From NCBI GenBank assembly GCA_002118135.1, contig BDIU01000373.1, forward strand, positions 1 to 64,000: 64,000 bases of DNA. Reading direction: 5' to 3'. The stretch is from Trebouxia sp. TZW2008. Taxonomy: Eukaryota; Chlorophyta; Trebouxiophyceae; Trebouxiales; Trebouxiaceae. A program made the translations under genes and the position numbers. The notes beneath the pieces are model-generated. The model saw only the letters and a list, made by a program, of their open reading frames with translations. It did no database searches and was not told where the DNA came from. Shown here piece by piece: positions 273-64,000 of the stretch (position 1 is the first letter of the stretch; every line of letters begins with the position of its first letter).

Positions 273-3200
273 CTATCGGGGGGAGTTGGGCAGCAGGCCT
301 TGCTTTTTGCACATGAGCCTGCCCTTACACAGCTTTTGCAAGCAGAGCAGTTGCTCTTGAGTATCAGGCATGAAAGCCTCCTCACAGACCTTCTGCATGT
401 GCATCCCTGGTGACAGTCAATACTTGAAATGGGGGTCAAGTTTTGCACATGAGAATCTGATGTTTTGTTTCCATTGGTCTGCCGCATTGTTGGGCAACAG
501 GTTGTCAGACACAATGTTGCATGCATGTGGCCCGGGGGACATACAACACGTAAGGTGCTTGAGAGACCAAACAAGGCCGCAACAGCACTGGCTCATGTCT
601 GCACACACATGTCCTGTGACTGACAAAACCAAAATAGACTCAGACTGTTACCTGACTTCTGTGCCTCTTCTTGCTCCCACGCCTGAATGACATCACGTAA
701 TGCCTTTGTGGCTTGGTTCACATCCACCTTTGCCGTAACCTCTGGGTAAACACATCGGTAACAGCTGACTGTGTACGGCGCAACTGGATCACACAAGGCT
801 CTAGCAGCTGATTGAAAGAGCTGTTGCTCTGTTCCTTTGAGCGTGCGAGCTGCGCTGTAATGCGCCATGCTGCTGCATACACGTGTTATAGCTTCCTGCA
901 GTGAAGATGTGAGGAAGAAGAGGAGGAAAGGGCGAATGCCAAAAAGGTGGATGCACTCAAGAAAGCAAGCAGAGACGGGTTGCTCTGCAAGCTGAGTGTG
1001 CGAGCTGCGCTGTAGTATGCCATGCTGCTGCATAAGAATTTCAGAGCTTCCTGTAATGATGGCGAATCAAGACGAGAAAAGCAAGAGGAAAAAGCGTCAA
1101 CAGAAATAGCATAGAGACAACCTAGAAGATAAGGCGCAGCGGGAAGGAGTAATCTATGAAGTCTTCTGTGGCCCTTGTCTACCAAAGGCAGCACTGCATA
1201 TTCCCTAGACTCTTCAGCAACAACAATCAAAAGTAAAAAAGAAGTAGAGGGGAAGAAAGGGCGGTATGGTACCTGTAGGATGCTAGCCAGGGCTTCTGCT
1301 AGAGAGCGCGGTGCACAATGCCGCAGCTCATTGAAGGCGGTTAGCAGTCCGTTGACAAAGACAGCAAGAGGGGTGTGATCCATCAGAGTGTAGGGGGGAT
1401 TGGAGGGGTCAGCCGCCTGACCCCCCTGCAAGGGTGCGCCTGTGGCTGCATCTGATGAAGAAGAGCCGAGCTGGTCCGAAGAAGGGGAGGAGCGCGCTCG
1501 GGAGCGAGCAGCAGCGGATGGCATGGCTGTCCATTTGTGGGTGGTCAGCATTGTCTGGAAGGTTTCCACAGCTGTGCCCACCGCCTGGAAGTGGCACAGC
1601 TTTTGTCAGCAATGTTAGCAGAAGTGGTATTGCCACTATCCTTCAAGAGTGAGAGCTGTTACCAAACTTGTTTGAGTGTCTTGAAATAGCTTTGACCCTT
1701 GCATGCAGAGAAAGCAGTCAAAGTTGCCAAAGCTGCCAAAGTTGTTGCAGTGACACCTCAAAGCACAAGGCGTTGATATGGGTACAGACAACAGAGCGTG
1801 TACCCATAATACTACAGAACTGACTGAACACACAAGCATACCTTGGAGAACAGGTTCAGCACGCAGGCCTCAAATATGGGAGGCAGCAACCCTCGAATGT
1901 CCAGCCCAACCCTAGCCAGGCTCATGCCACAGTACATGCAGTGCTCCAGAACTGATGCCAGGCTGCCACCCTCTGTGATACGCGGTAAGTGCTGGCGTAA
2001 GGCCTCCAGATATAGGCATACTCTGTGCTCAGCCCAACTGAAGACCAAGCCTCCGTCTTGAGCTTCCCCATCCTGTCACATGCAATCTCAATGTGTCTAT
2101 TCACGAGCAATAGATTGCAGCAATACAAACCAGTTGCGCTTTGTACTACACTGTAAGTGCTGGCGTAAGGCCTCCAGATACAAGCACACTCTGTGTTCAG
2201 CCCAACTGAAAACCAAACCACTGACTTGGGCTTCACCATCCTGTTGAATGCAAAATGCATGAATTACATCAGTGGCAATATTCAAGTGCAGTGGGCAACA
2301 CATCCCAGGATTTCAATTAGCTTTTCATTGCAGCAGTTTGAACGTTGTGACTGTCATTGTTCATGGGCTCTGCAAGCTACTGAGTTGCAATGGTCACAAC
2401 TGTCTTTCGGATGCTTACACCGTTTCTGTCAGTCTACAAGTTACAAACACAGATTGTACTTTGCTGATGCATGCAACAGACGAATGTGTTCACCCACGCC
2501 TACCTGGTCTACTGCCATTACTTTTGCTCTGACATTGCCTGTATGACCTCTCTGTGAAAACGTGTAAACACGTTGATTGACATTGTCACACATATTGATG
2601 GGCATGCGTTACCTGAGCAGAGCTGTCATCAGAAAAGATGGCCCTGTATTGCATGACCACATCAAAGAGATGCAGCCTGTGGACGTCAGTCAGCCGCTTG
2701 AGGTAGTCATAGGCGCTCTGTGCGTCCAGATCTTCAATAATTTCAGCCATGTACTCTTCTCGGCATTGCAGGAACTGCAACCTCAGTTCCTATCACAACA
2801 CACGCATAGTCAAACACTTTTGGATTTCCTGCTGAAAGCTGAGTTACCTCAGCACATGACGCAGGTTGATTGTGGGCAGCCTGTGCATAGCAGGTTTTCC
2901 ATTTGAGGTGGTCATATGCGCTCTGTGCGTCCCAGTCTTCAATTACTTTAGCCATATATTTCTCTCGGCATTGCAGAAACTGCAACGTCAGCTCCTGTGA
3001 CAGACCAGCTTGGTTGATCAGCCAAGTTGCGGAGCTTATGATGGAATATACTTAGCTCTGCACATGATGCATGTTGGTTGTGCAGGCAGTACTTGTTGAG
3101 CGTCAAATTCTCTCCATTTTCATTACCTACTGCAAAGCCAAATGTCACAGACATCCACAGAGCCAAGATCAGCTTCAGATTATACCGAAGCATGTAGGCA

Positions 3201-5242
3201 CATGCTTTACTGCATATTCAACTATTGAAAGACCAGGACAACCGGGTGAACTGACTCATTCAAAGAAGACCCCAAGCCGCCGCAGAAAGCCAGTTGTCCT
3301 CAGGCAGTCTGGCAGCTGGATGTTACTACGCAGCTTCTGCATGTGTTGACACACCAAGATCCAGCCCAAACATGTAAACTCACCCTTTCGGAAAAGACTC
3401 CTAGCCGCCGCAGAAAGCCAATTGTCCTTAAGCAGTCTGGCAGCTGGATGTTACTACGCAGCTTTTGCAGCAGCTGCTCTAGCATGGAAGCTGAGGTGGC
3501 ATCGACTTCCTTGACCAGGCTCTGCACCACTTTGAGGTCGGAATGCATGAAGGCTAACTTTGCTATGAAGCCCTTGAGATCCAGTGCATCATCATAGTTG
3601 CCGTTCCTGACGCAGGTGTCCATCAGCTGAGGAACCTCCAGCAACTCAATAATGGTGGCGTGATTGCCTGCATGCACCAATCGTGGCAAAACTGAGATGT
3701 GAGGATGAAAACTGCACAGTCAATGATGGTGGCGTGATTGCCTGCATGCACCAGTTGTGGCAGAATTGAGATGTAAAGATGAAAACTGCACAGTCAATGA
3801 TGGTGGCGTGATTGCCTGCATGCACCAATTGTGGCGAAAACGAGATGTAAAGATGAAATCTGCACAGTCAATGATGGTGGCATGATTGCCTGCATGCACC
3901 AGTTCTGGCAGAACCGAGATGTAAAGATGAAATCTGCACAGTCAATGATGGTGGCATGATTGCCTGCATGCACCAGTTGTGGCAGAACCGAGATGTAAAG
4001 ATGAAATCTGCACAGTCAATGATGGTGGCATGATTGCCTGCATGCACCAATTGTGGCAAAACTGATATGCAAAGGTGAAAACTGCACAATCAATGATTGT
4101 GGCATGATTGCCTGCATGCACCATTTGTGGCAGAATTGAGATGTAAAGATGAAAACTGCACAGTCAATGATGGTGGCATGATTGTCTGCATGCACCAATT
4201 GTGGCAGAATTGAGATGTAAAGATGAAAACTGCACAATCAATGATAGTGGCGTGATTGCTTGCGTGACCCAATTGTGGAGAAATTGAGGTGTGAAGATGA
4301 GATTTGCACGATCAATGATGGTGGCATGATTGCCTGCATGCACCAACTGCGGCAGATCTGAGGCGTAGAGATGCAGACTGCACAGTCCGCCCTTTGTTCC
4401 TGTGAGTGATACATCTGTTGAACAACACAGCAACAAATGATGTCGCTGCATGCGTTGATGGCAAGCTGTTTCTTGACATCTTGATTTGAGAAGTTGCATA
4501 TCTGCATGCGCTAATGACATTTGGATGCATAATCTTGTGAGCTGAAGCAAAGCGCTTGTGGCAGCATGACTGTTCCAGCACAGCCATAAAGTGTACTGAT
4601 TGCCATGCTGACTGTTCAGCCAAGTCAAAAAGCAGTTAAAACAGCTTGCACTTAGGGTTGCATTACTTGCAGCGTGACAGAGACGTACATGATTGCGTTT
4701 CAACGCAGTCAAGGACTCATGTGCTATTTGTGTGTGCTATGTGTCATGATGATGTCAGGGCTGGGAGATCAGAGCCTACTTTGTAGCTGCTTGTTTGCTG
4801 TTTGCTTGGCTTGCAATGCCTTTGCTGTGGTGATAAAATGTTCACAGACTCGATCAAGCACTGGAATGTCTTGCAAGAGGGCATCAACATGTCCTGCCAG
4901 GCTCTGCATTTCATCTCGAGCAGACTCCATGCATGTTGCAGAGTTGATGAAGGCCTTGTAATGCTTGACTGCTGACTCTTCTGCCTGCTTTCTCAGGTGA
5001 TCCTGATCAGCCTTCAGAAGTTCTGGCTCCTTGCCGAGCCGTTCCAGGCTGTACGATAGCAACTCGGTGAAGTACGTGTCTTCTTGCTCTTTGTCCTGCG
5101 TCGCTGTTTTTGGGGAAGCAGATGGCCTGCTGAGCGTGCTCTTGGTAAAGGATGAGCGGCTCGGCTTCTTGGCGTGGGCTGAGGACGGAGATCTGCTGTC
5201 AGAGCGCGCATCGGTGCTGCGGCGCACATTGAGTGATCTCAT
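273..5242 (-). CDS. COG8: Conserved oligomeric Golgi complex subunit 8 (COG8/Dor1)
   Basis: Subunit of the COG tethering complex, which guides retrograde vesicles within the Golgi. Seven exons: 5242-4780, 3667-3384, 2789-2613, 2072-1842, 1584-1273, 895-652, 406-273; phases agree throughout, giving 614 aa, near the usual family length. The start is the only in-frame ATG after an upstream stop. Family signatures seen: the N-terminal coiled-coil stretch ending in a KHYKAFI-like block (about 100-110), [20 protein letters not shown] (about 162-181), QFLQCRE (about 253), [16 protein letters not shown] in exon 3, [13 protein letters not shown] in exon 4 and [17 protein letters not shown] in exon 5. 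Exon 7 rests only on phase and splice sites and is less certain. Residues 3-40 are Ser/Arg-rich and poorly conserved. Introns 1, 2, 3 and 5 contain extra copies of adjoining exon edges, described separately. Divergent from the neighbouring PGBD gene. Confidence 0.93.
975..1050 (-). repeat. Duplicate of COG8 exon 6 head in intron 5
   Basis: On the minus strand, a TTACAG acceptor at 1051-1056 precedes a ~75-nt copy of the head of exon 6 (true start 895). [13 protein letters not shown] in the copy corresponds to [13 protein letters not shown] in the exon. The copy is truncated and loses the reading of exon 6 afterwards. Confidence 0.9.
2151..2240 (-). repeat. Duplicate of COG8 exon 4 head in intron 3
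   Basis: On the minus strand, an AACAG acceptor followed by ~90 nt that match the start of exon 4 (true start 2072), encoding [19 protein letters not shown] as in the real exon. It then diverges and lacks the conserved RGLLPPIFE region. Confidence 0.9.
2899..3342 (-). repeat. Duplicated exon edges in COG8 intron 2
   Basis: Two truncated copies flank the middle of intron 2. Positions 3342-3252 repeat the last ~85 nt of exon 2. Positions 2994-2899 repeat the first ~95 nt of exon 3, including a preceding CACAG acceptor, and stay open as [20 protein letters not shown] before diverging. Neither copy covers its whole exon, and the copy of exon 3 lacks the conserved [13 protein letters not shown] half, so the intact exons are taken as functional. 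Confidence 0.88.
3646..4345. repeat. 74-bp minisatellite in COG8 intron 1 (about 10 units) carrying copies of the exon 2 acceptor
   Basis: About ten tandem units, period 74 bp, with the marker gcctgcatgcacca recurring at about 3667, 3740, 3814, 3888, 3962, 4036, 4110, 4184, 4258 and 4331. Units are roughly 85-97% alike, diverging toward the distal end (4240-4345). Read on the minus strand, each unit holds TGCATGCAG followed by a copy of the first ~20 nt of exon 2 (GCAATCACGCCACCATTATT in the real exon). The proximal unit merges into exon 2, so the array was seeded at the intron/exon boundary. Overlapping minus-strand open frames in the array come from the repeat and are not genes. Confidence 0.95.
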
Positions 5243-5724: not shown

Positions 5725-8700
5725 ATGTGGACTCGACTATCTACGGGCATTGCAGCTGACCGCTGCTTTCGCTTACCAGGTAAAGGTCAAGCCGATTCAT
5801 CAAAGACGTTTGGCAGCTGTGATCGACCAGCGCCAGACGTACTTCTCTCTGGCTGCAGGGCCAAGCAGCCACTTCAAACGTCTAAAGATCACGTCCATAC
5901 CGCACAGACGTCTGCAGGCAGGGTTTTGCCTTGTGATCTGTCTTTCAAATTTTGCAAAACGTCAAGGTAGCTTTGCCTGCCTTGCAGAAAACACAAGCTC
6001 GGCCCCATGGACATGAGCAGAAGCTTGTCAAGAACTGGAATGGCACTTCAGAGCTCCCAGAGTACAATTTTGGTAGCAAGATTCTTGAAGAAGGCAGCTT
6101 TGGTGAGCAACACTTGCCTTACAAATGCAGTACAGACCTGAAATTTGACTAGCTAGCGGTATTGAGCATTAATGTTTATAGACCTGATGCACTCACACTC
6201 CTTAGTTGGATGCCGCACTCTGTAATTGTGATGTTGCCAACAGACTGTGTCATGATGGGAAACTGGAGCATGTTGTCCTATGCTGATGCAGCCTACAGCT
6301 ATGGCTGGCATATCATCACAGCCTGCAAAAGCACCTGCTAAGCATGACTAGACACAGTCAGCCTAGGCATTGACCCCTGGCTGCACTCACACTCATCATG
6401 AACAAAGCCTCAGCATGCAATGCAGCGTCGGGCTTAGCTGCAAACTTGGCAGTGCATGGCAACATTCTCGATGTTCACCCTAACACCCCGCGCATGCGCA
6501 AGTCAAGCACAGGCGCTTTGTTCAACGTGTCTGCCAAAGCGCAGCTTGGGTTCCGACCAATGGCTTTCTGGTAGCAGTGCAACTTGCGCAGACATAAGCA
6601 TTTTGCAACCTTGTATTTGGCAGCAACAGTGACAGATAGTGACAGGACCGGTATGACTTGCTCCTAGCCGCAACTCGCCTCTCAGCAGCAGAGTCAGCTG
6701 CACCTCTCAGCATGTTGCATGACTGCATTCCTTGCATTCCAGCCCTGCCAACACATCCCTGTGCACATGTGCAAACATGCAACAGCAGGCATCTGCGCCA
6801 GCTAGGCCAAATCAGACCAGGTGATCTCAGTTGAGGACAGCCTCAGATGTACGCACAGAATCGGCTGAGGGGTCAAATGATTGTGGCTTGCGTCATAGGA
6901 CACAGCAAACATGCGGCAGCTGCAGCTATGATTCAGACTGCCGAAATCCTGCCTTGCTAGGGTCCACACAAACAGCAAGTCCCCAATCAATGCAGGATAC
7001 TTTGTACAATCTATGTACACACAATCAGCACAGGGTGCCTTATCTCATGAATATCACTGATCATTACTATTCATCCAAGTAGAGATGCATTTGTCGCAGT
7101 TCTTGAATGTCAAAGGGCATTTTCCTAGGCTGCATGAGACGCTGATCAATGCTCATGCAGCTTGAATCATCAGGAAGGACTCCCCAAGCCTGCATGACTG
7201 CTGCTGATCACTGCTCATGCAAATGAAAATATGCTGAAGCTGTATCAATGTTGGAATGACACAGACTATTCTCCTTAGCTGTGTCAGATGCTGATTGATC
7301 CTAGTGCAGCTTCAATCACCAGCGGGCAATGGCCAATGCTATATGAGACGCTGTTGATGTCTCATGCAGGTGGAGATGTGTTGGAGCTGCAGTGCTTCTT
7401 GAGAGACCAGGGCTTAGACCAGGACTGCGTGAGACGCTGATCAATTGTTACTAGCAAACATACCTCCTGCCATGGTTACGTGATGTCAATATACATGGGC
7501 GCATTGAGCCACAACGTGTGCCTGCAGGTGGAGATGTGCTGCAGTTGCAGCATGGCTTGGGCGACCAAGGCTACTTCCCCAGGCTGCGTGAGACACTGAT
7601 CAGTTTCAGTGCAGCTTGAATGACCACAAGCTAATCGCTGATCACTGTTTTTTCAGGAGGAGATGTGCTGGAGTTGCAGCGCTTCTTGGGCGACCAAGGT
7701 TACTTCCCCAGGCTGCGTGAGACGCCTGACGGTTACACAGGCTACTTTGGGGATCTGACCAAGGAGGCCTTGCAGTCGTGGCAGCAAGACCGCAACATAG
7801 CTGCTGATGGCTGCTTTGGACCGACATGCCGGCAAGCTGTTGCACTGCAGCAGGTCAGCTCATTGAAAGGACAGCAAATGTGTTGTACTAGCAAAGCAGA
7901 AGGCTTTTTTTTCCGTCAAACGCTTTCCTTCAGTGTGATCGATAGTCTAGGTAGTCATGAGGACGTGTCAGAAAGTTCGCCATCCTTGACAGCAGCGATC
8001 CAGCGCTGCGGCCAAGCAGCAATGGGCAAGAAGCAGTGCTACATGACGTTGATCTTGCTTGAGTCTGTCCTTCATGAATCACCTGATGTGCAGTGTGGAC
8101 CATCCGCTGACCATCCGCCTGCAGCTTGACATGCTGCTGTATCTCTCAGCCTTTCTGCAGCTGCCGCTGAACTCAGCACAAGCATTGCAAGCACATTGCA
8201 TGGTAGTACTGCATGCAATGCATGGGTTTTGTGCACGGCCTTATGCCCTGCGAGCAGTGCACAACATGCATCACCAATAAGTGTGCATGTCCTGCTGGCT
8301 TCATCTGGCTGTCGACTTCTGCTGTTGTTTGTGTGCAGCGAGAGGTCAGGCAACAGCACACTAGCAAGCAGCGTCTGGTGCAGCAAGATGCGCTCACTCC
8401 CAAATTGCCGCTGTCACCAACTCAGGTGTGTGCTCTGCATCCAAGGCTAGCATCTGTCAATTGACAGAAAATTGTTGTTGATATGCATTCCATGCTGGGA
8501 TCATGCATGATGAACACATCATGTTGAGTTTATGTCTCAGAGGGATCTGATGCCACATGGCACCTGTGGACAATTGCATGATTTTCCTGTATTGTTGACA
8601 CATTCATGCTTGAGCAGACCATGAACCTACATTTTGACACATACTATGCTTCAGCAAAATCACTGTGCAACATGAATGTGCACACATGTTACTCTTAATG

Positions 8701-31692: not shown

Positions 31693-34600
31693 ATGATCAC
31701 CGCACCGCACATTGAGGCGATCAGGTCTTGTCTCTCACTCAAATCAGGAACTCGCATCAGCATCTCTTGTGTTAGTCGCACTGTCTTTGCATCGCCAAGC
31801 GTTCGCATCTCAACTCGCAAAGTCACCATGGTCGCCAATGTAACGAAGGTCCCATCGAATGCCATTCAGTTCTACGACTCTGGCACGTAAGCCTCCCGAA
31901 TTATGCATCCATTCAGCATGAATCTGTCACTGGACTTGAAACAGTGACGTCACGCAGATGCCCCTTCGCCCAAAAGGCATGGATCACCTTGGTCGAGAAG
32001 AACCTAAATTTCGAGCAGAAGATCGTCAGCTTGCAGGACAAGCCAAAGCACTTCAAGGACCTGTACGCCTCCATCCATCCGGACCCAACAGCACCAGCCA
32101 AAGTTCCTATCATCATTGGTGAGTCATTCAGCTCCACTGATGCATGCAAGCTAAATAGATAATACTGATCAGCTCCACGTGCTGTTAGCAAGATTGTGTG
32201 ACTCGTCAGGAGGACTGCACCAAAGACTTTGAGCCCTGCATGCTGTGTTGCACGCTTTGCGTCTTCATTAATATTTCAAGAGCTTCCCATTGTTTATGGC
32301 ATTGGACGTGCCATCACTCCATGCATATTTGTACAGTTTGCATGCTTGCTCAGAGGAATATTTACACATTAGCACAGTGACAAAGACCAAGGAATCAAAT
32401 AAGGTCATGTATACTGAATCTCCTGCAGATGGGGACAATCAGCTAATTGAGTCTGATGTGGTTTCTGAATACCTAGATTCCCAATACAAGTCAGCTGGTA
32501 CCAAGCTCTTCCCTGAGGATCCACTGCAGCTTGCAAAGGTAGCACCTGCATTCAGCCATTCACTCATTGTTTGTTCATTTATTCAGTCAAACGTTGTTAG
32601 GGCCAGTTTGCAGTCGACTTCTTTGCAAAATTGCAGAGAGTGATTGCTCATGAAGTTCTTACTAAATGTAACATCATCAAGCCCTATGTGAGTTATGTAT
32701 TCAAAAGAAACCCCCTATGCCTACAGCACCCCGTCACAAACTTTGCTACCACCTTGGGGTCATGTTGTTCTAGAGACAATGTCATAGAAGGATGAGGACT
32801 CAAGAACCCTGCAACGCCGCACCTCTCTGACACGCATCTGTGCAAGAGCATGTGCCATGAGCTTGATGCCTTAACAGGCACAGATCTGCAGGTTGCAACG
32901 TCCTGAATGCATAAGCAAATGCATTGTAACGTATTGATGGCCTAGGAAATGTGCTCAGTGACACTTAGTGCAAACCCTTTTGTGGCACACATGGCCTGTA
33001 GCTCCCCGTGCATTAGCTTTCTGTTTTGTATCAATTCATTGTCTGTTGACCTCCCTGCTGGTTCCCAAAGACAGTAAAATAAGTTGATTAATTGATTATG
33101 CATGTTTTGCTCCATCCTGCCTGCCCGCTCTGTCTTCAATCAATCAGAACGAGATTCTTGGACACTTTGTTTGACTGCTAGGAAACTTGACTGTCACTGC
33201 TTTGCAGGTGAGATGGTTCACAGACCTGTTTGCTGAGACCTTCCGACCCGGCCTATTTGCCCTGCTGCGCGCCGACTCTGAGGAATCTCTCCAAGCTGGC
33301 AAGACTAAGCTTGACTCTGCACTGAAGGTGAAACCCCATGCTCATGCCCATCCCCCTTAACCTCCCCCCCTTTCCCCCCCCGCCTGCCCCACATCCTACC
33401 CCATGATCTGCCTCGTGATGCCCCCATAATACCCCCATACTGTCCCCATGCACATAAGTGATCACGAAATGCTTAGCTTGGCATTTATCATCTGACAACC
33501 ACTTTTCAGCAGCAATCGTTGATGGGACCCATGCCAAAATTTGCATTGGAGCTGAGCATGAGCTATCGTATTGTCAACTGAGAGCATTCACTCATTATGA
33601 GCAGTTGTCATATGTCAGATTAAGCAGTTGCAGGGCTTGCTTTGAGAAATGTAGTCTTGTGCTGCAGAACCTAGACAACTTGATTGAGCAGCACTAGCAA
33701 GCATGCGCTGCTTTTCAAATGTGTGCAAACCCTGGCATTGACTTGAGTTGAATTCTGTGTTACAATCAAAAGTGAGGAGCTGTCAGCATGAGGCTCAACA
33801 CAAGACAGCCTGGCTACACGGATCCTGCGTCACACACCTGGCACCATTCTGTGATGTGTGATCTGTCAGCATGTGCTGCAGAACCTGACTAACTTCATTG
33901 AACAGCATGGAACCAGCAAAGACGGTGACTACTTCCTGGGAGGGCAGTACTTTGCAGAAGTGGCCACCGCTCCTTTTGTCCACAGACCTCCTTTGCCTTG
34001 CCTGTCAACTGTTCATGTGCGTTGCAGAATCTGAACAGGGTCATTGAACCGCAAGGCACTGGCAAGGGGTGTAGCGCTTTGCACATATGCAAAACGCGGC
34101 TTCAATTTGATCTTGCGCTGCAGAACCAGAACAAGTTAGTATCACAGCACTAGTGTCTCGTCTGGCAAATTATCAGACTCGTCCAACTTTTAGGGTACAA
34201 AAACTAAGCAGATTCATTGCGATGCAGAACTTGAACAAGTTCATTGAGCAGCACGGCACCAGCAAGGGTGGTGACTACTTCCTGGGAGGGCAGTACAGCT
34301 GGGCAGAAGTGGCCACTGCTCCTTTTGTCCACAGGGCCTCTTTTGCCTTGCCTGAGATCAGAGGCTACAGCTTGGACAAGTCTATTGAGCAACAGAATCT
34401 GACCCGCTTGGGCGCTTGGATCAAGGTCTGTCCTCCACTGTTTCAAATGTTTTTCAATTTCTGGTTCACCGCCACTTGCTTTGGCAAACCCAATGGTTGG
34501 TGCATCATAAACAAGGAAAAATACTTTGCGCGTGTACTTGACAAGTACACATGCTGAGCAGCAGAACCTGACTTGCTTGGGTGCTTGAATCAAGGTATGT

Positions 34601-35213
34601 CTCTCTCTGTTGAGCCAATCTCAAATGCTGGGTTATTGTCTGATATCTGACAGATTGCGGCAAACGCCTCGCACACATTTCTGTATCATATTGGGCTGAA
34701 GGGAAATCATGTGTGTACAGTAGGAGGCTGTACAAAGGCTCCCATTATGACGGCACAGACTTTTATTTGCCTGTTCTGGTTGCCTGCCCAGTCTTCATGC
34801 TGACATCAAAGGTCTGTACCACAACAAGCATGCAGCTGTTCGATTCACGTGCGTACAAGGGTGCAACGCCATTGTCTGCGTGCAAATCACACAACCAAAA
34901 GAAAACCCAGAATCCAAGCTTGCATATGAATGCACATGTGACATGAACTTACACATGAGTTTCTGCTGTGCAGGCTTCTTTGGTCAGAACAGCATACAAG
35001 GCATTTGCACCACCTGAATACAACATTGCACACAACTGGCAGAAGTTATTGTGCTCTGCTGCCCAGGTTGCTGCATATTCTTCAACTTGATTTTCTGCTG
35101 TGCAGGCTTCTTTGGCCAGACCAGCTTACAAGGCAACTGCACCACCAGAGGACAACATTGCACAGAGCTGGAAGAAATTCACTGGAGACTTCACCGGCAA
35201 AGTCACACAGTGA
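31693..35213 (+). CDS. Glutathione S-transferase, CPFA (Lambda/Omega-like) type, probably plastid
   Basis: Six exons: 31693-31886, 31958-32118, 32429-32538, 33208-33327, 34228-34425, 35106-35213; 296 aa. The first ~45 residues are Ser/Arg/Thr-rich and lack acidic residues near the start, suggesting a plastid transit peptide. The thioredoxin-like N domain has FYDSGTCPFAQKAWITLVEK (Cys66 as the likely active-site Cys, as in Cys-type Lambda, Omega and DHAR enzymes), VPIII and the IESDVVSEYL glutathione-binding loop. The all-helical C domain has KFIEQHGTSKGGDYFLGG, QYSWAEVATAPFVHR and RLGAWIK. Cys-GSTs perform thiol transfer or deglutathionylation rather than conjugation; which class this is cannot be fixed by eye. 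Ends in DFTGKVTQ. Intron 4 holds copies of exon 5; an alternative last exon lies at 34974. Confidence 0.87.
33352..33438. repeat. C-rich tract in GST intron 4
   Basis: Runs of up to 8 C with cccccctttccccccc and cccccat repeats, starting just after the exon 4 donor. Simple-sequence tract. Confidence 0.9.
33668..34227 (+). repeat. Four duplicates of GST exon 5 head in intron 4
   Basis: Copies begin at 33668, 33882, 34028 and 34124, each preceded by GCAG, before the intact exon at 34228. All start AA(C/T)C(T/A)(G/A)-AACAA-like (NLNKFIEQH in the exon). The longest, at 33882, extends ~125 nt through GGTGACTACTTCCTGGGAGG and GAAGTGGCCAC but lacks the AGCTGG codons for Ser-Trp. The shortest copies stop at an in-frame TAG within ~35 nt. 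Confidence 0.92.
34560..34605 (+). repeat. Duplicate of GST exon 5 tail with donor, in intron 5
   Basis: CAGCAGAACCTGACTTGCTT..TCAAG/GTATGT repeats the last ~40 nt of exon 5 (CAACAGAATCTGACCCGCTT..TCAAG/GTCTGT). A TGA replaces the Trp codon. Confidence 0.88.
34974..35090 (+). other. Intact duplicate of GST last exon (possible alternative terminal exon)
   Basis: TGTGCAG acceptor followed by 117 nt opening in the correct phase (0): ASLVRTAYKAFAPPEYNIAH against ASLARPAYKATAPPEDNIAQ in exon 35106-35213. It ends in its own TGA after a changed C-terminus (LLCSAAQVAAYSST). Both exons sit behind near-identical acceptors, so either could end the mRNA. Confidence 0.7.
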
Positions 35214-45575: not shown

Positions 45576-45772
45576 AAACAACAGATCACATGAAGCGCCC
45601 ACACCTCTCAAAAGCAGTGTGCATCTGCGTCTCATTGACGTTGCCGCCATATGTTGACCTTGTTGCAAGGTGGCTATGCAGCTGTAAGTTGGCATGGCAG
45701 ACAGAGAAGGTGGAGCAACAGGTGGAGAGTAACACAAGCTGCATAGGGCAGATGTTTCACCTATATATTAGG

Positions 45773-46388: not shown

Positions 46389-49300
46389 TCAGCAAGTGTT
46401 GGCTTGGTTGTCTGTGGCACGTGCAGTCTGGGTAGTGCAGGTAAAACGTGTGGAATGCTGCTGTGCTGTCCCAATGCGGTCTGCCCACTCGCCATGACCA
46501 AAGTGGGACATGTACTTGTAAAACATACAGGCAAATTAGACGTCCTTATCCTCAGCAATATACAGGAATTCATTCATTCAATGATGAACGTGTGCTAGAC
46601 AGGGTCAAGCATCAGCAATAAACAGAAATGGGCCTCCAGGAAGAGTTCACAGCAAGACAGCACCAGCTCTGTGTTGCTTTACCTGATAGTCCAGCATCTT
46701 CTGTTGTATTTCTGCATCACAGCTGGCAAGTATTCTCAAAGCCAACAGGCCGGCATTGGCCGCATTGCCTATCGCCACTGTTGCAACTGGAACTCCTTTG
46801 GGCATCTGCAGCAAGAAGCCAATGCTATGTGCATACATGGAGAATCTATCCTGTCATTTGCATGCAAACAAGTAGGTAGGGACACTCAGCCACTGATTCA
46901 AGAGACTGCTCAACTGCTGCACATGTCAATGCACTGCAGCGACTTGATGTCAAAACGGTCAAACTTCGGCAGCATCTGGATTTCTGAGCTGACATTCTGC
47001 ACTGTCATTGGCAGCCCTGAGCCTGTTCACTGACATTAGACAGCAAGGTGCTGGAGCTGTTCCTAGAATCCTGCTGGAGTTAAGATCACCCTGCAAAGAA
47101 TGGGGGCTGCCACGAAGGGGTGATGAAAAGGCAGATCAAGTTTGCTCAGACAATGCATATTGCAGATCACACAATGTCCTTGTGTTGCCATTGATGTTGT
47201 AATAGTTACAGGTGCAGGAATGGTTCATGCAGCACGCAATGTCATCTGTATAGTGTGTGTTGAGTCGATACATTAAGCTGTGTAGCACGTACCTGAACAA
47301 TAGACATCAAGGCGTCCAAGCCATCTAAATGCGCCCCAGCAGGGGTGACAGGTACCCCCACAGTAGGGAGGGGCGTCAGGGCCGCCACCATGCCAGGCAG
47401 ATGAGCTGCCCCCCCTGCTCCTGCTATAATGACTTTAATGCCCCTCTTGTGTGCATTCCTGGCATATTCCAGCATCCGGTCTGGCGTGCGATGCGCTGAC
47501 ACTATCGTCAACTCACAGGGGACTCCAAAACTTTGGATGACCTGCAGTCACGCGTACTGGTGTTTAAGGAAGGGTTATATCCAGTGGAGAAGACCATCGT
47601 GCTGCTACAATGACTTAAAATGCCCCTATTGTGTGTATTCCTGGCGTACTCCAGCATCCATTCCAGCGTAGGATGTGCTGACACTATTGTCAATTCACAG
47701 GGGGACTCCAGAACTTTGGATGGCCTGCAGTCATGCATGCTGATGCTCAAGCAAAGGTTCAGTCCGGGCATACACCAGCATGCGATCTGGCAATGCGCTG
47801 ACACTGTTGCCAATTCACAAGGATCTCCAAATCTCTGATTGTCCGGCAATCAGACTGATGCTCAGGGAAGGGGGGGGAGGGATCATGCCCAGCATGGCAT
47901 GTCACGTCAGCTGCGTGCATGTCATGTGTGCTGGCACAGCATGTCTGGTGACGAGCCATTTCACTACTGAATGCTACCAGACTTGCAGTCAGAGGATTGC
48001 ATGCTGACTTCCCCAGGTCGCACTCGCATCTGTGAGCAGTGCCGGTTTGATGCAGCATTGCAAATTGCCAAACAAAATGCAATGACTTGTTCTGCATACC
48101 TCTTCAGCTGCAGTCATGGTCTTCAGATCACTATCCGATCCCATGATGATGCCTATCTGGGGAGCCCCCTGGGGCTTGTTGGGGTCCCCCCGCCCAGAAG
48201 AAGAAGCGACTGGCACTGACTCATCCCCTACAGGGCTTTGCCTGCTGTGCGATTCCTGGCCTGCCAAAAAGCAATCAGCACTCAGACTTGTGTGACAATA
48301 GCGATGGTGCAGTCAGTTTGACCAAAGCAAGCCATGCATCTCCTAGGGTTGCGAAGAGTTGAGACAAGACAAGCTCAGATGTTAGTGCACGGATAGATGT
48401 TGAAGTGCACAGGAGCTCTTGAAGGAACCTAAACACGCTGCAATTAGGCAGGGTCAGACACCCTGTTTGCGTTTGTGACTTATTGTGTTGGTGCAGATAA
48501 TAGTTCCTGATAGCTGCTACTGATACAGCAGATTGCATTTGCAGCTGCACTTTCTGTGACTAGTGACATACCTGGAGACTCATGCATGTCCTGTGCGGCT
48601 GCAGCTTCCTGGCAGCTGCTGCTGGCCGCAGCCATTGCGTCAGCAGCTGCGCTGTCAATAGCCCGCAGCCTTTGTTGAGCTGTCTCGTTGTCATCAGCTA
48701 CAATTGTGATGTGACCCAACTTGCGTTTGGTCTGCACCTCTTTGCCATACCAGTGTACAGCTGTGCCAGGAGTCTGCATCGCTCGTGCCATCAGTGCTTC
48801 TGAAGCCTGCTTGCCACGTGCTCCTGATGCCTCTCCAAGAATATTCAGCATGATACTGCAAATAACACACGCAGAGTCAGCGCTACTGGCTGCGTTCTGG
48901 ATGTTTCTGGGGCACATGCAGTATGTGGGATCTGCAAGGAGTTTGCATCGCTCGTGCCATCACTGCTTCTGAAGCCTGCTTGCCACGTGCTCCTGATGCC
49001 TCTCCAAGAATGTTCACCATGATACTGCTGTATGTGTTTGGTCAGTGCTGATAGGTTGCAGCTGCATGTTCGACAACTCCATGCAGTATGTATGCTGTTT
49101 CTGAAGTGTATATTGCTCAAGCCATTGGTGCTTCTGAAGCCTGCTTGCCACGCGCTCCTGATGCCTCTCCAAGAATGTTCAGCACGATGCTGCGTACACC
49201 ACACACACAATCAGAGTAGCTGTCTACCTTCTTCTGCATGACTCACAAAGGCATGCACGGTTGATGCTGTTGCATGGGTCTGCGTTGCCCAAACCTGGTT

Positions 49301-52300
49301 GCCTCTGTAACTCCACCTGCGTATTGAGCACAAAGCTGTACACAATCGTCACAATTGTCAAGTAGAAAGAGCTAGATCCATTCTGCATGTGCTACCAGTG
49401 CCTGCCATATGCGCACTATCATGTGTTTAGCGGCCCAAGCCATCAAAGCATCTGAAATCTGCTAGCTGCTGATGCCTCCTCAAGACTACTCAGCCTGATG
49501 CCATGGCAGTTTTGGTTGCTGGGCATCAGCACTTACACACAAACATAAAATTAGCCATCAGTATTGTGTTTAGTATTTTATTTTGATTGTTTTTTGTTAT
49601 TATTAATACTATTGTTATTGTTCCTGTTATTGTTATTGTTATTATTATCAATACTATTACTATTACTATTACTGTTACTGTTACTATTTCTATTTCTATT
49701 ACTATTTCTATTACTATTACTATTACTACTGTTATTATCATCATTATTGCTCTTCAGCTCTGACAACATTGCTAGCATCGTCAGCACTACCATGACTGAC
49801 ATTTGCACAACTTCTGAATAGTGGTATGGAAATATCTGTCTGTGTCAACTGACCTGGACCCCACCACTAGGCTGGTGTCCCCTAGGGGCCACCCCAAAAT
49901 GGCTCTGAGGTGCTGCTCGTACTGACTGGTGGCACAGGCTTCAATGGTGTAGTGCCCTGAGTTGTGGGGCCGAGGCGCTATTTCATTCAACAAGATGTTG
50001 CCATCTGCTAGCAGAAACATTTCCACACCAAACACTCCAGCACCTAAAGCCACAGCACACAACTTTAGCCCATGCGAGTCACACAGAATTGGTCGGCAGG
50101 TCACTGCTTTGATGCGCAAGCAGCAGAGTTTTAAAAGTTTACCAACAAGGATGTACATGAATGAATTCAACGGACACACGAGTAAAGGCATCGACACCAC
50201 CCATGGTTTGCTTTCAGGCAGCAGAATATATAGCAATCATCACATCATGACCTGACGTTTTGCAATGTCATCTCAAGTTCTTGCCTTTCTGTTTGCTTTT
50301 GCCCTTCGCTGTGAGCTGTCAACAGCAATATTGCATTGTCATGGGCATAAGTACATGCTTGACATTGGCAATGAAAATACAAGCTTTGTAGTGTACTCCT
50401 CTCATTGGAATCTGCCTCTCCTTTGTGTATTCCAAATCACCAGTGTGATGCATGCATTTGATATGCAACAGAAACCTGATTTCAGTACTAGCATGTCATA
50501 CCTTCAAGGCATGCAACAGCCTGCTGTGCCACATGCTGCGCTTGAAGCTGCACAGACGCTGGGACACTAACAGACGCAACAGTGTCAGGCATCCACAGGC
50601 AACAGCAAGCATGACAATACATTCAAGCCCCCAAAACAAAAGCAGCCCATACCTTCAAGGCATGCAACAGCCTGCTCTGCCGTGCGCTGTGCTTGAAGGC
50701 GCACAGAAGCTCGGATGCGGGCAGGGGTCAGGAACTCACTGGTGACAAAACCCACCACTAAAGACTCAAAAGCGAAAATCCAGCATGGCATGCCATGTGA
50801 CAGAAGCTTACGCTTTGCACTGGTCATAGGAATGCACCAGCAAGCAAAAGTCAAGACTCAGGAGTCACAAGTGAGATGATTATTGCATATCTTCAAGGTA
50901 TGTGACGGCCTGCCGTGCCACACGCTGCACATGTACACACAGGCACCAAAAGTACACAGGTGACAGCAATCGCCACTCACGACTCAAAACTGAAAAGACG
51001 TCTGACAACCTTCAAGAAATGCGGCATCCTGCTGTGCAACACAAAAACACAACATGCACCTGTGATGTGAACGCATAAGCAATACTGTCAGGATTTATGA
51101 CTCTTCCACTAGCATGCCGTACCTCCAAGGCATGCAACAGCCTGTTGCGCCACATGCTGTGCCTGAAGCTGCACAGCAGCTGAAACACTGGTAGACGCAA
51201 CAGTGGTAAGAATGCACAGGTGACAGCAGTAATATTCTACCATGCAAAATCCTTAGTCAATGGCACTACGTACCTTCAAGGCATGCGACGGCCTGATGCG
51301 CCACCTGCTGTGCCTGAAGCTGCACAGAAGCTGGGATGCGGGCAGGCGCTTCAGTTGTGTGACAGATGTTGTCCTTGTGGATGGTTTCAACCACTGGAAA
51401 AGCCTTGATTTCATCGTTTCTGGATCTGGCTACCATCACTGCTAGTTCCTGCATGCTGTAAAGCATCAGTTGATGATGCCAGAAAGCGACAGACAGGATC
51501 ACAAGATCGCTTACATGTGGCGACACTGGAATCCTGCATCATAAGCTCAAACACATAGTGCTGCAGAATTTGTAGACTTTTCCTTGGTTTGTCTTTTGGG
51601 TTTCTTGCTTTTTGAAATCATTTTCTCTCCACCTGCTTTGAAACCAAATGCATGCTGTCACAGCATACACATGAGGTGTGACTGAGTCAAAACATGAGGT
51701 GTGACATAAGTGTGTCCAACACACCTTGACAAAAGGGGTCCATTTTTCGGCATACAAACCATGCTTATACCCGCCAAGCTGCTGGACTGCGTTCTCTAGA
51801 CCTTCAGGTGACTGCACAACTGCATTGCCCTTGCCATCGTATGCAAATCGCCTTGACTTGAGCATCAAGGGATAGCCAAAAGCATCCCCTGCCTGCTGTG
51901 CCTGCTGAGCGTTTGAAACCTCTAGGAAGTCGCCGACTGGGACTTTGGCTTGCCTGAAATGGGTCTTTTGAGCATATTTGTCCTGCATGGCAGCTTTCAA
52001 ATTTTGATAGTTGTATAAACCCAAAACAGTGAAATTGGTTTGACATTCTTGCATGTATCAACCGGAAGTTGCATCTTGAAGGGTACAAAATTGCACTCCT
52101 GGCTGGTGTAGCACATGCTGGTAAGAAATGGATCAAGAAACCTTGGCAGGCAGAGATCCTATGTTATCCAGACACAAGGCATGCGGCGAGTGCAGATTTG
52201 AGTGTACAATGCTTGTTATACATCCACTTGTAATATCAAATCAGCAAGCCCAATGGGTTACATCTGGCTCCCACATCATTGTACTGAATGAGTGATTTAC

Positions 52301-54326
52301 CTGGATAAGTCTGAGTGTGTGTGGCGTTGGCTCTACATCCAGCTTAAACTGTGAGGCTGCAGACTCCAAAGCGTCCACATCAATGTGCTCAATCTCAACA
52401 GTCAGCACATCCACCTGCAATGAACACGTGAAGTCAGTCAGAGACCGTCAAACCTTTCCTGGCATTCACGTGAATGTACTCTACTGCAGCATCTAGCACA
52501 GCCACCCAACACACAAAAGTGATGAGGTTCACATGGAAAGGCACAGCACCTTGGCACCGAACACATGCAGCTGCCACACATACATCATGCCTGTCACATT
52601 GATGTGCTCTATCTCCACAGTCAGCACATCCACCTGCCACGCATTCATGGTGGGAACTCGTCACGCAGACAATAACGAATGTCAAGATGTGCAGCGCACG
52701 GCCAACACTGCACAGCGTCCAGCATGGGTAACACTTGAGCGTGAACACATACACATACACGTTGTTCGCAATGTGTCTGGACATGTGCCGGGGTCAGAGA
52801 TATGCCTTAAAGGCGGTGGCAGCTTTAGCAGCTGCAGCTTGCAGGCAACATTGATCTACACACATGCATGTAGACCAGCATTGTCCGCAGTGTGCAGCCA
52901 CCAAGTGCTGCATGCGGTTTGTAGACACATGCGCCACAAACTGCTTGGTTGACTTGGGTATTGGTCTTGCCTCACAGCAATGCTTGCAGGACACGGCGCA
53001 CAAGGGTTCTGCACAAAACTACCATCTGCCAAAGACTATTCTGACAGACAACTTTCAAGTGTGCGCAGCAAGAATATGGTAGGCTGCTGCTCTGGCGCTT
53101 GCAGATCATGTTCTTGGCAGATTATTCTTGAGGGGAGCTGTTAAAGAGGCAGCAGGGCTGGGACTTGTGATTATTATGTACAAGCTGTGCAAACTGGATT
53201 CTGCTCGCAAGTCTTGGAAGCTGCCCACAGTGTGCACAATAACAAAGGCCTTTCTGGCAGAATAACTGGCGGAACAACTCAAGAGCATCAGCAAGAGCAT
53301 GAAGGGTGATGCTTACAAGCTGTGCAATCTGTTTTACTGCTCCAGGGTCTCTGAAACTGCCCACAACTTGCACGGCCACAGCAGAAGCAGGGCAGCCTGC
53401 CGTAGGGTCAAGCACCACAATTCTGACACCCATTTTGGCCTGCATGCAGACAGATGGCATGTTCTATACAAACTTGGCTGCTGTTGAGAGTGATTCTTAG
53501 ATTCATGTTGGCCCGAATGCTGTCAGCTGTCATGATCGATGCCGATTTGAGTGCTTTCTGCTGAAATCCTCCAACCCATATTGGCTTTCATGCTGACAGC
53601 TGTTGGAAGCAATGCAGATTGAGCTGCTGTTTACATGTGCGATGTTACACCTGTCTTAGCCTGCATACTGACAGTTAGCATATTCCATACAAACTTGAGT
53701 GCTGTTGGATGCTGCAATCTGCACACCCATCTTGGTCTGCACGGTGGCAGTTTTTGCAAACAGCTGCAGCTTTGGCTGCTGTGTGGTACGTTGTGAACAG
53801 CCTGAAGTGTCTTGCAATGCATTCCAAGGGCTTGTGTGTGACATGTTAACGACAAGTCCTGCTGCACATTTTGCATGCATGGATGGCAGCTCTCTGGCAT
53901 GCCAGATCAAAGGGACCATTGCAGCAGACAATTGTTGTTTTGAGCACTTACAGCTTCCATTGCCAGCATCTTGCCAAGCTGACCGCCGCCTAGAATGCCG
54001 ACTTTCTGTGGGTGCTGCAGCATGCTGGCAGTCTGCACACTGTAGCAGCAAGCAGACAGGGTAAATGTGACAGCGTAACGGTATTTTTGCCTCAATTTGT
54101 GTCAAGCTTACTTGTTTGCAGATACAGTCCGCACGGGAGCCTGATCAAGGGCAGATGCGCTCAGCTTTTGAAGAACTCGCTCCCGTCTCGAGCACTGCCG
54201 CAGATAGCGTGTCTCGGAACGCAAGGCAGAACGGCCATATAATGAACGGCAGGATTCACGCAAGTCTGCAGGTGACCCAGAGCTCAAGAAGCAAACGCGC
54301 ATTGCCTCTATCAGCGTGGCCGTCAT
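46389..54326 (-). CDS. Phosphoribosylaminoimidazole carboxylase, PurK-PurE fusion (purine synthesis)
   Basis: N5-CAIR synthetase (PurK) fused to N5-CAIR mutase (PurE), carboxylating AIR in de novo purine synthesis. Twelve exons: 54326-54112, 54024-53952, 53439-53317, 52414-52301, 51982-51725, 51448-51274, 50043-49854, 48855-48572, 48260-48100, 47541-47293, 46805-46683, 46514-46389; 696 aa, all in phase. Residues 1-70 are Ser/Arg-rich, consistent with plastid targeting (start could be 54371, 54326 or 54302). PurK ATP-grasp: [91 protein letters not shown]. Linker about 456-510. Pur[16 protein letters not shown] (512-526), [49 protein letters not shown]. The last exon (46514) and exon 1 rest mainly on phase. 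Several introns carry exon-edge copies. Confidence 0.96.
47620..47838 (-). repeat. Duplicates of PurE exon head (exon 47541) upstream
   Basis: Minus strand: copies start at 47834 and 47724 with AG acceptors. The 47724 copy runs ~105 nt and keeps ATCCAAAGTT.TGGAGTCCCC and the segment for ELTIVSAH, but has TTGGAATGG in place of the invariant SAHRTPDR block, so it would make a non-functional PurE. The intact exon is at 47541. Confidence 0.9.
48895..49505 (-). repeat. Duplicates of PurK-E exon 8 head upstream of the exon
   Basis: Copies starting at 49189 and 49024 (intact exon 48855) keep ATTCTTGGAGAGGCATCAGG and CGTGGCAAGCAGGCTTCAGA, reading as [17 protein letters not shown] weaker third copy lies at about 49440-49505. 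The copies end in CTTGAGC or TTGCAGATCC and do not continue into the conserved [15 protein letters not shown] block. Confidence 0.9.
49563..49748. repeat. AT-rich trinucleotide microsatellite (TTA/TTG/CTA)n in PurK-E intron 7
   Basis: About 60 near-perfect triplets (ttattgttattgtta, tactattactat and related). The Leu-rich and Asn/Ser-rich open frames across it are artefacts. Confidence 0.97.
50500..51182 (-). repeat. Four duplicates of PurK-E exon 6 tail with donors, in intron 6
   Basis: After the real exon 6 (ends 51274), the minus strand repeats its last ~50-85 nt near 51182-51122, 50940-50895, 50735-50650 and 50555-50500. The shared block is CTTCA(A/G)GC.CAGC then GCA.GCC.T.GCATGCCTTGAAG/GTA(T/C)G. 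The 50735 copy also keeps CC(T)GCCCGCATC and an S-V-R-L-Q reading. Donors remain GT in all four. Confidence 0.88.
52570..52633 (-). repeat. Duplicate of PurK-E exon 4 head upstream
   Basis: GCAG/GTGGATGTGCTGACTGTGGA at 52633 copies the start of exon 4 (52414: GTGGATGTGCTGACTGTTGA), reading [11 protein letters not shown] and diverging after ~45 nt. Confidence 0.9.
53175..53237 (-). repeat. Duplicate of PurK-E exon 3 tail downstream of the exon
   Basis: The segment repeats the last ~60 nt of exon 3 and its donor region (true end 53317): GTGGGCAGCTTCCAAGACTT and TTTGCACAGCTTGTACATAA correspond to GTGGGCAGTTTCAGAGACCC and ATTGCACAGCTTGTAAGCAT. Confidence 0.8.
53560..53740 (-). repeat. Three duplicates of PurK-E exon 3 head upstream
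   Basis: Minus-strand copies begin at 53736 (ACCAAGATGGGTGTGCAGAT), 53660 (GCTAAGACAGGTGTAACATC) and 53584 (CCAATATGGGTTGGAGGATT). The intact exon 3 begins GCCAAAATGGGTGTCAGAAT at 53439. Spacing is ~75, ~76 and ~145 bp. Confidence 0.82.
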
Positions 54327-57087: not shown

Positions 57088-59092
<2,005 letters not shown>

Positions 59093-62000
59093 ATGGATTC
59101 GATGTGGACCGGCTCTGTCAATGCGCAAGCTCCCTGGCCTGAATACCCCCGACCGCAGATGCACAGGGAAGCATGGCTGAATCTCAACGGCATCTGGGAA
59201 TTTGCCGGGTGCGGCCTTTCGCAGCCAAAACGTTGCCTACAGCAAGAATAATCGTTCGAAGTCTCTCTCCATGCAATGCAGGGGAAACTTCAGCCCATCT
59301 CCAGACCAGCCTTTTCCAGAACAGATTGTTGTGCCATTCCCTGTTGAGTCAAAACTCTCTGGTAGGGCAAAGCTTTCACAGGCCCTGCCATGGTGCAATG
59401 TTTGCAACGTTTTCACGCAGTCATATAACAATGCATTGACGTCCTGCCCAACCTGCCATGTAAGATGTTGCTTACACACACACTCAGCATCAGCATTGTT
59501 CTGTCAAGTATCAGAAACACAGTCTCATGCCTAAGCCTTGAACCAACATTCATTTGCTGTGCATCAAGGAATTTGCCGGCAAGGTCCAGAGTCCCAGCAC
59601 ATGTGGTACAGACGCACATTCTCACTTCCTCAAGGCTGGCCAGGGCAGCGTGTGCTGCTTCACTTTGGTGCTGTTGACTGGCATGCAAACGTGTGGGTCA
59701 ATAACATACAAGTTGGGTCACACTTGGGCGGGTATGTAGTAACCGATCACGCCTTTATGGATTTTTGCATTCCCCGGGCAATCAGAATGTTGCATGCAGT
59801 TCAGTGGATTATGAACTGACCATCACGGATTTAGTGTCCTGCTTTTACATCCTGTGGTTGGCATCCATGATTTCCACCTAGTGTCTTGTTGACATTCAGC
59901 AGGAACTGGTCACAGGTGATGTGTATTCTCAGGTACGACAAGTTTACGTTTGACATCACCCAGGCCCTTCAGAACAGCCATGGACACTCACATGAGCTGA
60001 TGGTTGAAGTCACCGATCCCTCAGGTCAGTCCAAATTGCCCTTCCAGCGTCTAAACTTTGTTGCAGCATGCAGCTGCATTCCAAATCACAGTCTGATTTA
60101 CTGTAATGTTCAGACTCTGAAAAATAAGAAGTCCATATTGCTTGCATACAGAAACCGAGTCCTTTACTAGTCATCTGCACACAGTCGCTGTCACACTGTG
60201 TTTCAACTGTCTCCAAATTTGGCTTTGCATGTTCAGCTCGCATGCAAGTGTGAATTGCTACTGACATTATCAGCAGCAAGGCTTGACTGCACAGAATTTG
60301 ACTGCTGCATGCCCTTTGCAAGTAGTACTATGCCTGTGAGGCCCATGACAAGCTGGCCTGGCAAGAGAAGACTTGAGCCACATGCACTCAGGGCTTGTGC
60401 TGGCACATAATGCAGTTTGTCGTCATTGTGACCACAGCTTTGACTTCTGCATGCTTCCTACAAATAGTGTGATGCTAGCGCTGCTCATGGCAAGTTGGCC
60501 TGGCAAGACAGGACTTAAGACGGACCCATGCTGGCACATGCATTTACTATATCATAATGCGTGTTGTGTTTGCTGCAACATGAGCTGATCCGCAACCAGG
60601 CTCTGCTGTGCTAACTCTGATTGCTGCATGCCCTTGTCAAATACTGTCATGACAGTGTCTTGCCAGGCTGGCTTGCCATGAGCATCACCAATATTGCAGA
60701 AAGAGCCTGCAGCATATACATTACTCAGTCATACTCACTACTCACTACTCACTACTCACTACTCACTGCTCACTACCCACTACCCACTACTCACTACCCA
60801 CCTCTCACTACTCACTGCTCACTACTCTTTACTCTCTACTCACACTCACTGATCACTACTCAACACTCATTGCTCACTATACTCACTTCCATACTCACTC
60901 ACATACTGACAACAACGACATTTACTATATCGTCATCATTGTGGCAATGGCTGCAACATGAGCTGATCAAACTCCGATGCACTAAGAGTGACTGCTGCAT
61001 GCTTTATATGGATATTGAAATGCTTGTAACAGCAAAAAAGGAACAGTTACTGTCAAGCTGTGGTTGGTCACAGGAAGTCCGATGAGCCTATCAGGCTTCA
61101 GGTCTCGGACCCAGACTATAAATGTAATTGATTGATTGAATGTATCAAGGTTGCTGCAATGGTGATGCAGACTCGCAGAACATTGCAGTGGGCAAGCAGC
61201 GTTTGAAGCCTGAGGGAATCTGGTACACCACAAATTCTGGCATCTGGCAGACAGTGTGGCTGGAACCAGTAAGCTCTCTGTGCCAATATAGCACATGGAA
61301 CAAAACACACAGCTCTATGTACATGTGAACTGTTGCATGATAATGCATGGTCAAGGGCTGGAAAGTGTATGCATCTTTGCGCTATGGTCTCACATGACAC
61401 AGTCAACGCCATTACAGAAATGTTGTGTACCTTCGCTGTTGCACGTACATGAGTGGTCACATGCTGTGTCTGATTTCTCGCTAGCAGGGATATGTGCATA
61501 CTTGCGTATGTTGCAATTGGTGTTGTATTCAACACTTGTTTATTGTTGTGTGTCAACCTTCAGATGCACTTGCTAATCCTAGCTGCAACCAGTGTGCTTG
61601 ACTAATGACAAATACCTGATGCATGCATTGTCAATATCAGACCATGACATATGATAAAGTCAGCGTGCCAAGTAGCCAACTTATGCTGGGACATGCAAAT
61701 GACAAAACGTAGGGTCTGGAATAATTGTTTCATGATCAGTACAGTAGTCTGTTGATATAAGGACACTTGATACAAGGACGCTCTCAAAATGAGGACAATG
61801 CGACTGGAAACCAAAACAAAACAACGCATTCTGACTACAGTGGGACTTCTGAGTTAAGACAATTCGATGTAAGGACACTTTTCTTGGTACTCAATGCAGT
61901 CGTTATATTGAGAGATTACTGTATCTGGCAGCTGTCCTGACGTAAGTAGTTTAAACAAGACCCATTGACACACAAAGTGCATGGCGCCTGTTGCAGGTAT

Positions 62001-64000: not shown

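Follow-up and report, generated by a model that had tools for sequence, protein, structure and literature searches.

In the green alga Trebouxia sp. TZW2008, many introns contain truncated copies of the ends of the exons that flank them, splice sites included: copies of exon heads, behind an acceptor, lie upstream of the intact exon and copies of exon tails, followed by a donor, lie downstream. We analysed these copies in a window of 64,000 nucleotides (positions 1-64000 of contig BDIU01000373.1, GC content about 49%) of a 68.54-Mb assembly in 527 contigs (GCA_002118135.1), and in an additional 300 kb taken around kinesin, chaperonin and class-I tRNA-synthetase genes. The copies are arranged in tandem, match only their own locus where units were searched against the genome, decay as non-coding sequence and lie at exon edges more often than uniform placement predicts. 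The explanation that we think likely is recurrent tandem duplication, probably biased to exon-containing DNA and hidden by splicing.

Local direct repeats

Comparison of the window with itself gave 74 local direct pairs with scores of at least 35 bits, every pair within an array being counted, whereas a single control, shuffled locally, gave 0. In a set of 26 sequences (302 kb), at a threshold of at least 50 bits, 294 local direct pairs were found against 11 inverted pairs and 0 in shuffled sequences, and only 5 direct pairs were spaced 1.5-9 kb apart. Indeed, an earlier note on this DNA, made from the window, had reported such exon-edge copies, and these counts show that they are real, beyond chance and present outside the window. 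The full set of 38 sequences (364 kb), to which searches for kinase, AMP-binding and aldehyde dehydrogenase families contributed no loci, gave 353 local direct and 12 inverted pairs at the same threshold; the copies are thus in direct orientation and close together, as local tandem copies should be. At a lower threshold of 40 bits, 35 of the 38 sequences have one or more local direct pairs. The other three are L001, L009 and L027, and the distribution among loci is therefore uneven despite the high average.

Identity reaches 99% in 1 of the 353 direct pairs and lies below 90% in 312, so assembly duplication does not explain the bulk of them. When three units from the window were searched against the genome, none of the three had a match beyond its home locus; these searches skip very common words and score the best candidates only, and their match counts are lower bounds. 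The units therefore do not resemble dispersed elements, and similar copies spread through the genome, as expected of introners or other mobile elements, were not found for any of the three. Mobile or introner-like insertions, or assembly errors, would also place repeated sequence in many introns, and were rejected on the home-locus matches of the three units, the pair identities and the scarcity of inverted and distant pairs; we regard them as next to impossible.

Orientation rule and tandem structure

Among Pfam-anchored exons, an exon head is paired with a truncated copy upstream in 54 cases, at 26 of 109 acceptors, and an exon tail with a truncated copy downstream in 37 cases, at 17 of 102 donors. 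The rule that heads are copied upstream and tails downstream, already put forward in the earlier note, is obeyed by 91 pairs and broken by 4; all four exceptions involve an array, or else two copies each matching the profile. Such a rule is accounted for by tandem duplication together with the need to keep the exon.

Homology extends over at least 85% of the repeat period, and hence over nearly the whole unit, in 53 arrays. The nearest intron flank is unrecognisable in 44 of 74 edge copies, so that whole-unit homology is established for these arrays and not for every copy. The tail array of L025, for example, consists of six units, including the exon's own tail, in which the exon parts are homologous and the spacers partly so. 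The shortest period in 159 clusters has a median of 144 bp (quartiles 123.5 and 171.5, 5th-95th percentile 78-221), which is larger than the 60-150 bp first estimated. The remainders of unit length modulo 3 are 58/55/46 in the same clusters, showing that the reading frame has no visible role. A simple test of spacer homology, significant for 16 of 24 heads and 6 of 17 tails, was replaced by splice-site-anchored counts; it is confounded, since 19% of 156 randomly chosen pairs of segments, spaced 150 bp apart, also score as similar.

Decay of the copies

Over 88 copies, which belong to 49 edges, copies differ from their exons by distances of 0.124, 0.093 and 0.249 at the first, second and third codon positions, respectively. 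Possible exon duplications, on the minus strand of L024 and the plus strand of L011, had been excluded beforehand from this measure and from those of the flanks. The copies carry about 0.67 indels each, and 54 of 59 are not multiples of three. It follows that the exon is constrained and the copy is non-coding. Functional alternative exons should keep an open frame and constraint at the protein level, and the copies show neither: most of their indels break the frame and all codon positions mutate. Together with the near whole-unit arrays, these distances and indels support the proposal that the copies arose by simple tandem duplication over the exon border and that selection acts on the intact exon alone.

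At 6-20 bp from the splice site, the flanking intron diverges by 0.81, far more than the exon part, and recognisable flank homology is kept in 30 of 74 copies (0.41), the 14 out-of-register copies of the 88 having been excluded. In simulations of neutral tandem duplication, flank homology is kept in 0.49-0.53 of copies with frequent indels of 10-80 bp, at an indel rate chosen after the data had been seen, and in 0.68 when such indels are rarer. The sharp drop in similarity at the splice site had been read as copying bounded by that site. This idea was dropped, because the near whole-unit arrays and the large-indel simulation make it unnecessary.

At three loci, neighbouring copies both match the protein profile: L024 (minus strand; profile positions 218-256 and 222-253), L011 (kinesin; 181-216 and 170-240) and L006 (kinesin; 189-305 and 263-290). 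These pairs are possible exon duplications or alternative exons.

The AG is kept in 39 of 47 head copies and the GT in 26 of 35 tail copies; splice sites are therefore not visibly purged from the copies. Median acceptor scores are 5.2 for copies, 6.5 for true sites and -0.6 for random intronic AG, and in 9 of 31 cases the copy acceptor equals or outscores its true site. For donors the medians are 1.6 for copies and 5.1 for true sites, with 7 of 25 copies equal or better. Overall, 16 of the 56 nearest copies have a consensus score that equals or exceeds that of the true site, suggesting that local splice-site sequence would sometimes fail to separate the two. The splicing machinery must presumably ignore these decaying copies of exon ends and splice signals.

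Probable preference for exon edges

An intron entered the count if its two neighbouring exons adjoin in the profile and its splice scores both lie above 1; exons were kept only if they overlap profile hits, the initial gene-model pass having over-predicted small exons. Ninety introns (44.7 kb), drawn from loci outside the window, satisfied this definition, and they contain 45 repeat clusters, 22 at heads, 17 at tails and 6 internal. Thus 39 of the 45 clusters touch an exon edge, and their duplicates span a splice site, as in intron gain by tandem duplication. Uniform placement predicts 17.0 edge clusters at present intron length (P=1e-13) and 25.5 on a conservative null, in which all duplicated sequence is removed to give a shorter ancestral intron (P=1e-6). 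Simulation puts the detection bias toward edges at about 1.3-fold (1.27-1.37), and with a 1.3-fold bias the excess is still significant (P=3e-11 at present length; P=3e-5 on the conservative null, where 27.6 are expected). Each of the 39 edge clusters shares 9 bp or more with the trimmed profile core itself, so errors in exon boundaries do not create the result.

In the first batch of loci, 25 of 28 clusters were at edges at the first count and 23 of 27 after the cores were retrimmed. The later loci, L026-L037, served as a replicate and gave 16 of 18 edge clusters against 9.9 expected (P=3.5e-4). All 15 clusters with a maximum identity of at least 88% are at edges, where 7.7 are expected (P=1.6e-5), or 8.5 with the 1.3-fold bias (P=1e-4). 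The near whole-unit arrays, a subset from the same introns that is less subject to decay bias, are at edges in 8 of 10 cases against 4.05 expected (P=0.008). Exon edges are thus probably preferred; on the conservative null the odds ratio is about 4-5. Clusters occur in 33 of the 90 introns, and the introns that bear them are longer (median 671 bp versus 335 bp). Recognisable repeat segments make up 23.8% of the verified intron sequence, which makes the process a major source of intron length in the sampled genes.

Origin of the copies

Recurrent tandem duplication could produce these features as follows. Segments of about 60-220 bp would be duplicated head-to-tail, repeatedly, in this genome. 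A duplication reaching from an intron into an exon head, or from an exon tail into an intron, would leave one intact exon, and the intron could absorb the extra copy, splicing presumably continuing from the first donor to the last acceptor, the outermost sites. Selection would hold the exon, while the copy and the surrounding intron would drift and be cut up by further duplications and indels, so that only the exon-derived part would be recognisable for long. The edge excess is fitted best by a preference for exon-containing DNA, duplications wholly inside exons presumably being purged. The duplication step may be the end-joining of breaks or paired nicks, and decoys would be skipped if exons are recognised as whole units. 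The units are nucleosome-sized (median 144 bp), a hint that points toward chromatin. We put forward only tentatively the wider view that a mutational process targets exon-containing DNA (perhaps exon-positioned nucleosomes, or breaks linked to transcription or splicing), that it has built much intron sequence from decayed exon ends, and that the spliceosome recognises whole exons rather than splice-site strength.

Several observations weigh against recurrent, edge-biased duplication as a complete account. The ratio of flank distance to that of codon positions 1+2 in the exon part is 7.5 (95% 6.0-9.3), beyond plain neutral drift, so that flank divergence must have a further source, in large indels, exon-derived conversion or some constraint. 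The simulations described above retain more flank homology than is observed (0.49-0.68 versus 0.41). The ratio of codon position 3 to positions 1+2, 2.30 (95% 2.00-2.62), is slightly higher than the maximum of about 1.9 reckoned for a fully neutral copy. Along the copied part of the exon, mismatches cluster mildly (mean z 0.66, s.e. 0.14, 51 pairs). If the detection bias is taken as 2-fold, the edge excess has P=7e-8 at present length, weakening to 0.002 on the conservative null and to 0.013 in the replicate. Among clusters of less than 84% identity there is little edge excess (16 of 20 versus 12.2, P=0.035). Since overlapping repeats were merged, an internal event may count within an edge cluster. 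Finally, the sample is gene-centred and not random, because its loci were picked around kinesin, chaperonin and tRNA-synthetase genes.

Gene conversion from the exon could refresh the intronic copies, keeping the exon parts alike while the flanking intron drifts. The much greater similarity of the exon part than of the intron flank within one unit and the clustering of mismatches agree with this, but the longest identical runs are no longer than expected (z -0.11) and large-indel turnover approaches the observed flank loss without conversion. Conversion, to which we give a minor chance, would add to tandem duplication and not replace it. Another explanation holds that tandem duplication strikes non-coding DNA uniformly, ancestral introns having been short, and that edge copies stay visible longer since one partner is conserved; similarly, the earlier note had suggested a general process of which edge copies are just the detectable subset. 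The six internal clusters, the greater length of cluster-bearing introns and the fading of the edge excess among the most divergent clusters are in keeping with it. Nevertheless, a bias of merely 1.3-fold is insufficient to turn the 17.0-25.5 edge clusters expected into 39 of 45, and the excess is also found among the clusters of at least 88% identity and the near whole-unit arrays. Uniform duplication is therefore rather unlikely.

In a third alternative, the copies would be retained because they slow or tune splicing, either as functional decoys, an idea also raised in the earlier note, or as splicing enhancers. Their splice sites are often kept, and copy acceptors come close to true ones in score, some equalling or surpassing them. 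Splice-site retention of this size is, however, expected of recent neutral copies; in addition, the copies differ freely in number and spacing, many donor copies are weak, and the copies accumulate mostly frame-breaking indels and mutations at all codon positions. With unit lengths indifferent to frame and splice sites not visibly purged, nothing in the copies requires a function, and tuned decoys seem very improbable. Recurrent tandem duplication with a preference for exon-containing DNA thus fits the observations better.

Comparison with known systems

Tandem duplication across an intron-exon boundary has a precedent in one gene, the potato RdRp (RNA-dependent RNA polymerase) gene (Ma, Lan and Niu 2016, PMC4974935); that paper also reports a second tandem duplication, of 83 bp, within an intron. 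The boundary duplication in potato gave rise to a new intron and left part of the copy in the exon, whereas in the alga whole copies lie inside existing introns, 33 of 90, and both heads and tails are copied. In the Rogers model, as described in the same paper, an intron is gained through duplication of an exon segment bearing AGGT. Local tandem duplication supplies splice sites in that model too, but the duplicates of the alga span existing boundaries and lengthen introns. As for the mechanism, small head-to-tail duplications arise from the repair of staggered breaks by CST/Pol alpha-primase or Pol theta, according to a study of induced breaks in mouse and human cells (PMC8355091). In the alga, junction microhomology, with a median of 0 in 7 arrays of at least 88% identity (of 8 found), gives no pointer to the mechanism.

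Published assemblies of Trebouxia lichen photobionts are of 63-74 Mb with 49.6-51% GC (PMC11523091, PMC12712428), close to the 68.5 Mb of the present assembly and the GC content of the window. Genes of Asterochloris average nine introns in the corresponding account (PMC6652019). The main texts of the two Trebouxia papers contain the word 'tandem' 0 times and the word 'intron' 0 times and once, in a reference title; that of the Asterochloris paper contains 'tandem duplication' 0 times. Full-text literature searches, whose coverage left most subscription papers outside, found no genome with pervasive exon-edge tandem copies. The type of mutation is thus a known one, with a precedent in a single gene, and its density and placement here are without a report in the literature searched.

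These copies are an example of introns being enlarged by the ends of their own exons. They provide many natural experiments, in which close copies stand beside real splice sites and 16 of the 56 nearest score at least as high. Two questions thereby become testable: what lets splicing tell a true site from a near-copy, and what sets the positions of short tandem duplications. Such copies may also affect the prediction of genes in this algal group.

Loci in the window

Twenty open reading frames of the window were scanned with Pfam, and 14 coding cores, from nine genes, were used; some of the profile hits, which contain internal stops or repeat another hit, were not taken as cores. Of these cores, five, belonging to four genes, have verified edge copies, at eight exon edges: COG8/Dor1 head and tail, peptidoglycan-binding head, GST (glutathione S-transferase) head and tail, PurE head, and head and tail of the first PurK exon. 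Three further PurK/PurE edges were read directly from the sequence. At the threshold used, no edge copies were found at nine cores: Rad4, UBC, UbiE, two GH2, two ArgJ, the COG8 N-terminal core and the second PurK exon. The earlier note had counted at least 20 loci, in nearly every gene; the form, the orientation and the excess are as it described, but neither each of the 20 loci nor the extension to nearly every gene was confirmed. The features are as follows.

3229..3341, minus: COG8 exon tail copy with GT, 127-128 bp downstream in gene orientation
3384..3667, minus: COG8 (Dor1) exon (Pfam Dor1, E=1.6e-36), with a head array upstream and a tail copy downstream
3646..4387, minus: COG8 head array of ten 74-bp units (TRF, 10.0 copies, 88%)
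7105..7242, plus: oldest units of the peptidoglycan-binding head array, 67% to the next unit
7367..7437, plus: older head copy of the peptidoglycan-binding exon, 81%
7525..7594, plus: head copy of the peptidoglycan-binding exon behind AG, 90% identity
7657..7853, plus: exon of the peptidoglycan-binding-domain gene (Pfam PG_binding_1, E=2.9e-10)
33877..34004, plus: GST exon head copy, 86%
34012..34068, plus: GST exon head copy, 81%
34228..34425, plus: GST C-terminal exon (Pfam GST_C_2, E=2e-7)
34555..34601, plus: GST exon tail copy with GT, 85%
47293..47541, minus: PurE (AIR carboxylase) exon (Pfam AIRC, E=6.5e-34)
47602..47759, minus: PurE exon head copy with acceptor, 83%
47757..47872, minus: older PurE exon head copy, 72%
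48572..48855, minus: exon taken, from its sequence and not from a profile, to be the PurK C-terminal/linker exon
48933..49193, minus: two tandem head copies of the preceding exon, spacing 169 and 165 bp
50487..51182, minus: five tail copies of the PurK ATP-grasp exon, which ends at 51274
52301..52414, minus: PurK exon with upstream head copies, read from the sequence
52595..52637, minus: head copy of the preceding exon, 91%
53317..53439, minus: first anchored PurK exon (Pfam RS_preATP-grasp-like, E=1.4e-6), with a head copy at 53647-53707 and a tail copy at 53179-53237

Each unit of the COG8 array carries an acceptor and about 22 bp of exon head. The unit with the lowest coordinates is the exon's own edge and the other nine are copies, eight of which keep the AG; the earlier figure of up to ten near-copies of an acceptor thus holds for the units of the array, of which nine are extra. 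The PurK and PurE exons appear to belong to one PurK-PurE gene. In the tail copies of its ATP-grasp exon, the GT is kept after the copied exon end in 4 of 5. The three units searched against the genome, each with the outcome given above, were the COG8 array unit, the head-copy unit of the C-terminal/linker exon and 50487-50725 of the ATP-grasp tail copies.

The UbiE/COQ5 methyltransferase gene (57091-57912, minus) is a single uninterrupted open reading frame over the Pfam domain in an otherwise intron-rich region. Among the best 120 of 7993 matches, the closest named one is from [Myrmecia] bisecta (70% identity), the other named matches near the top are mostly from green algae, and the one named Trebouxia protein among them is only 55% identical. 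Two tRNA genes, at 8749-8821 (minus) and 9301-9381 (plus), lie about 500 bp apart on opposite strands, and an inverted repeat at 23266-23399 has arms of 63 nt, 92% complementary, around an 8-nt loop. Short-unit arrays of TACTCAC, TATTGT/TACTAT and GCATT, at 60732-60899, 49574-49728 and 21794-21891, respectively, are distinct from the exon-edge repeats.
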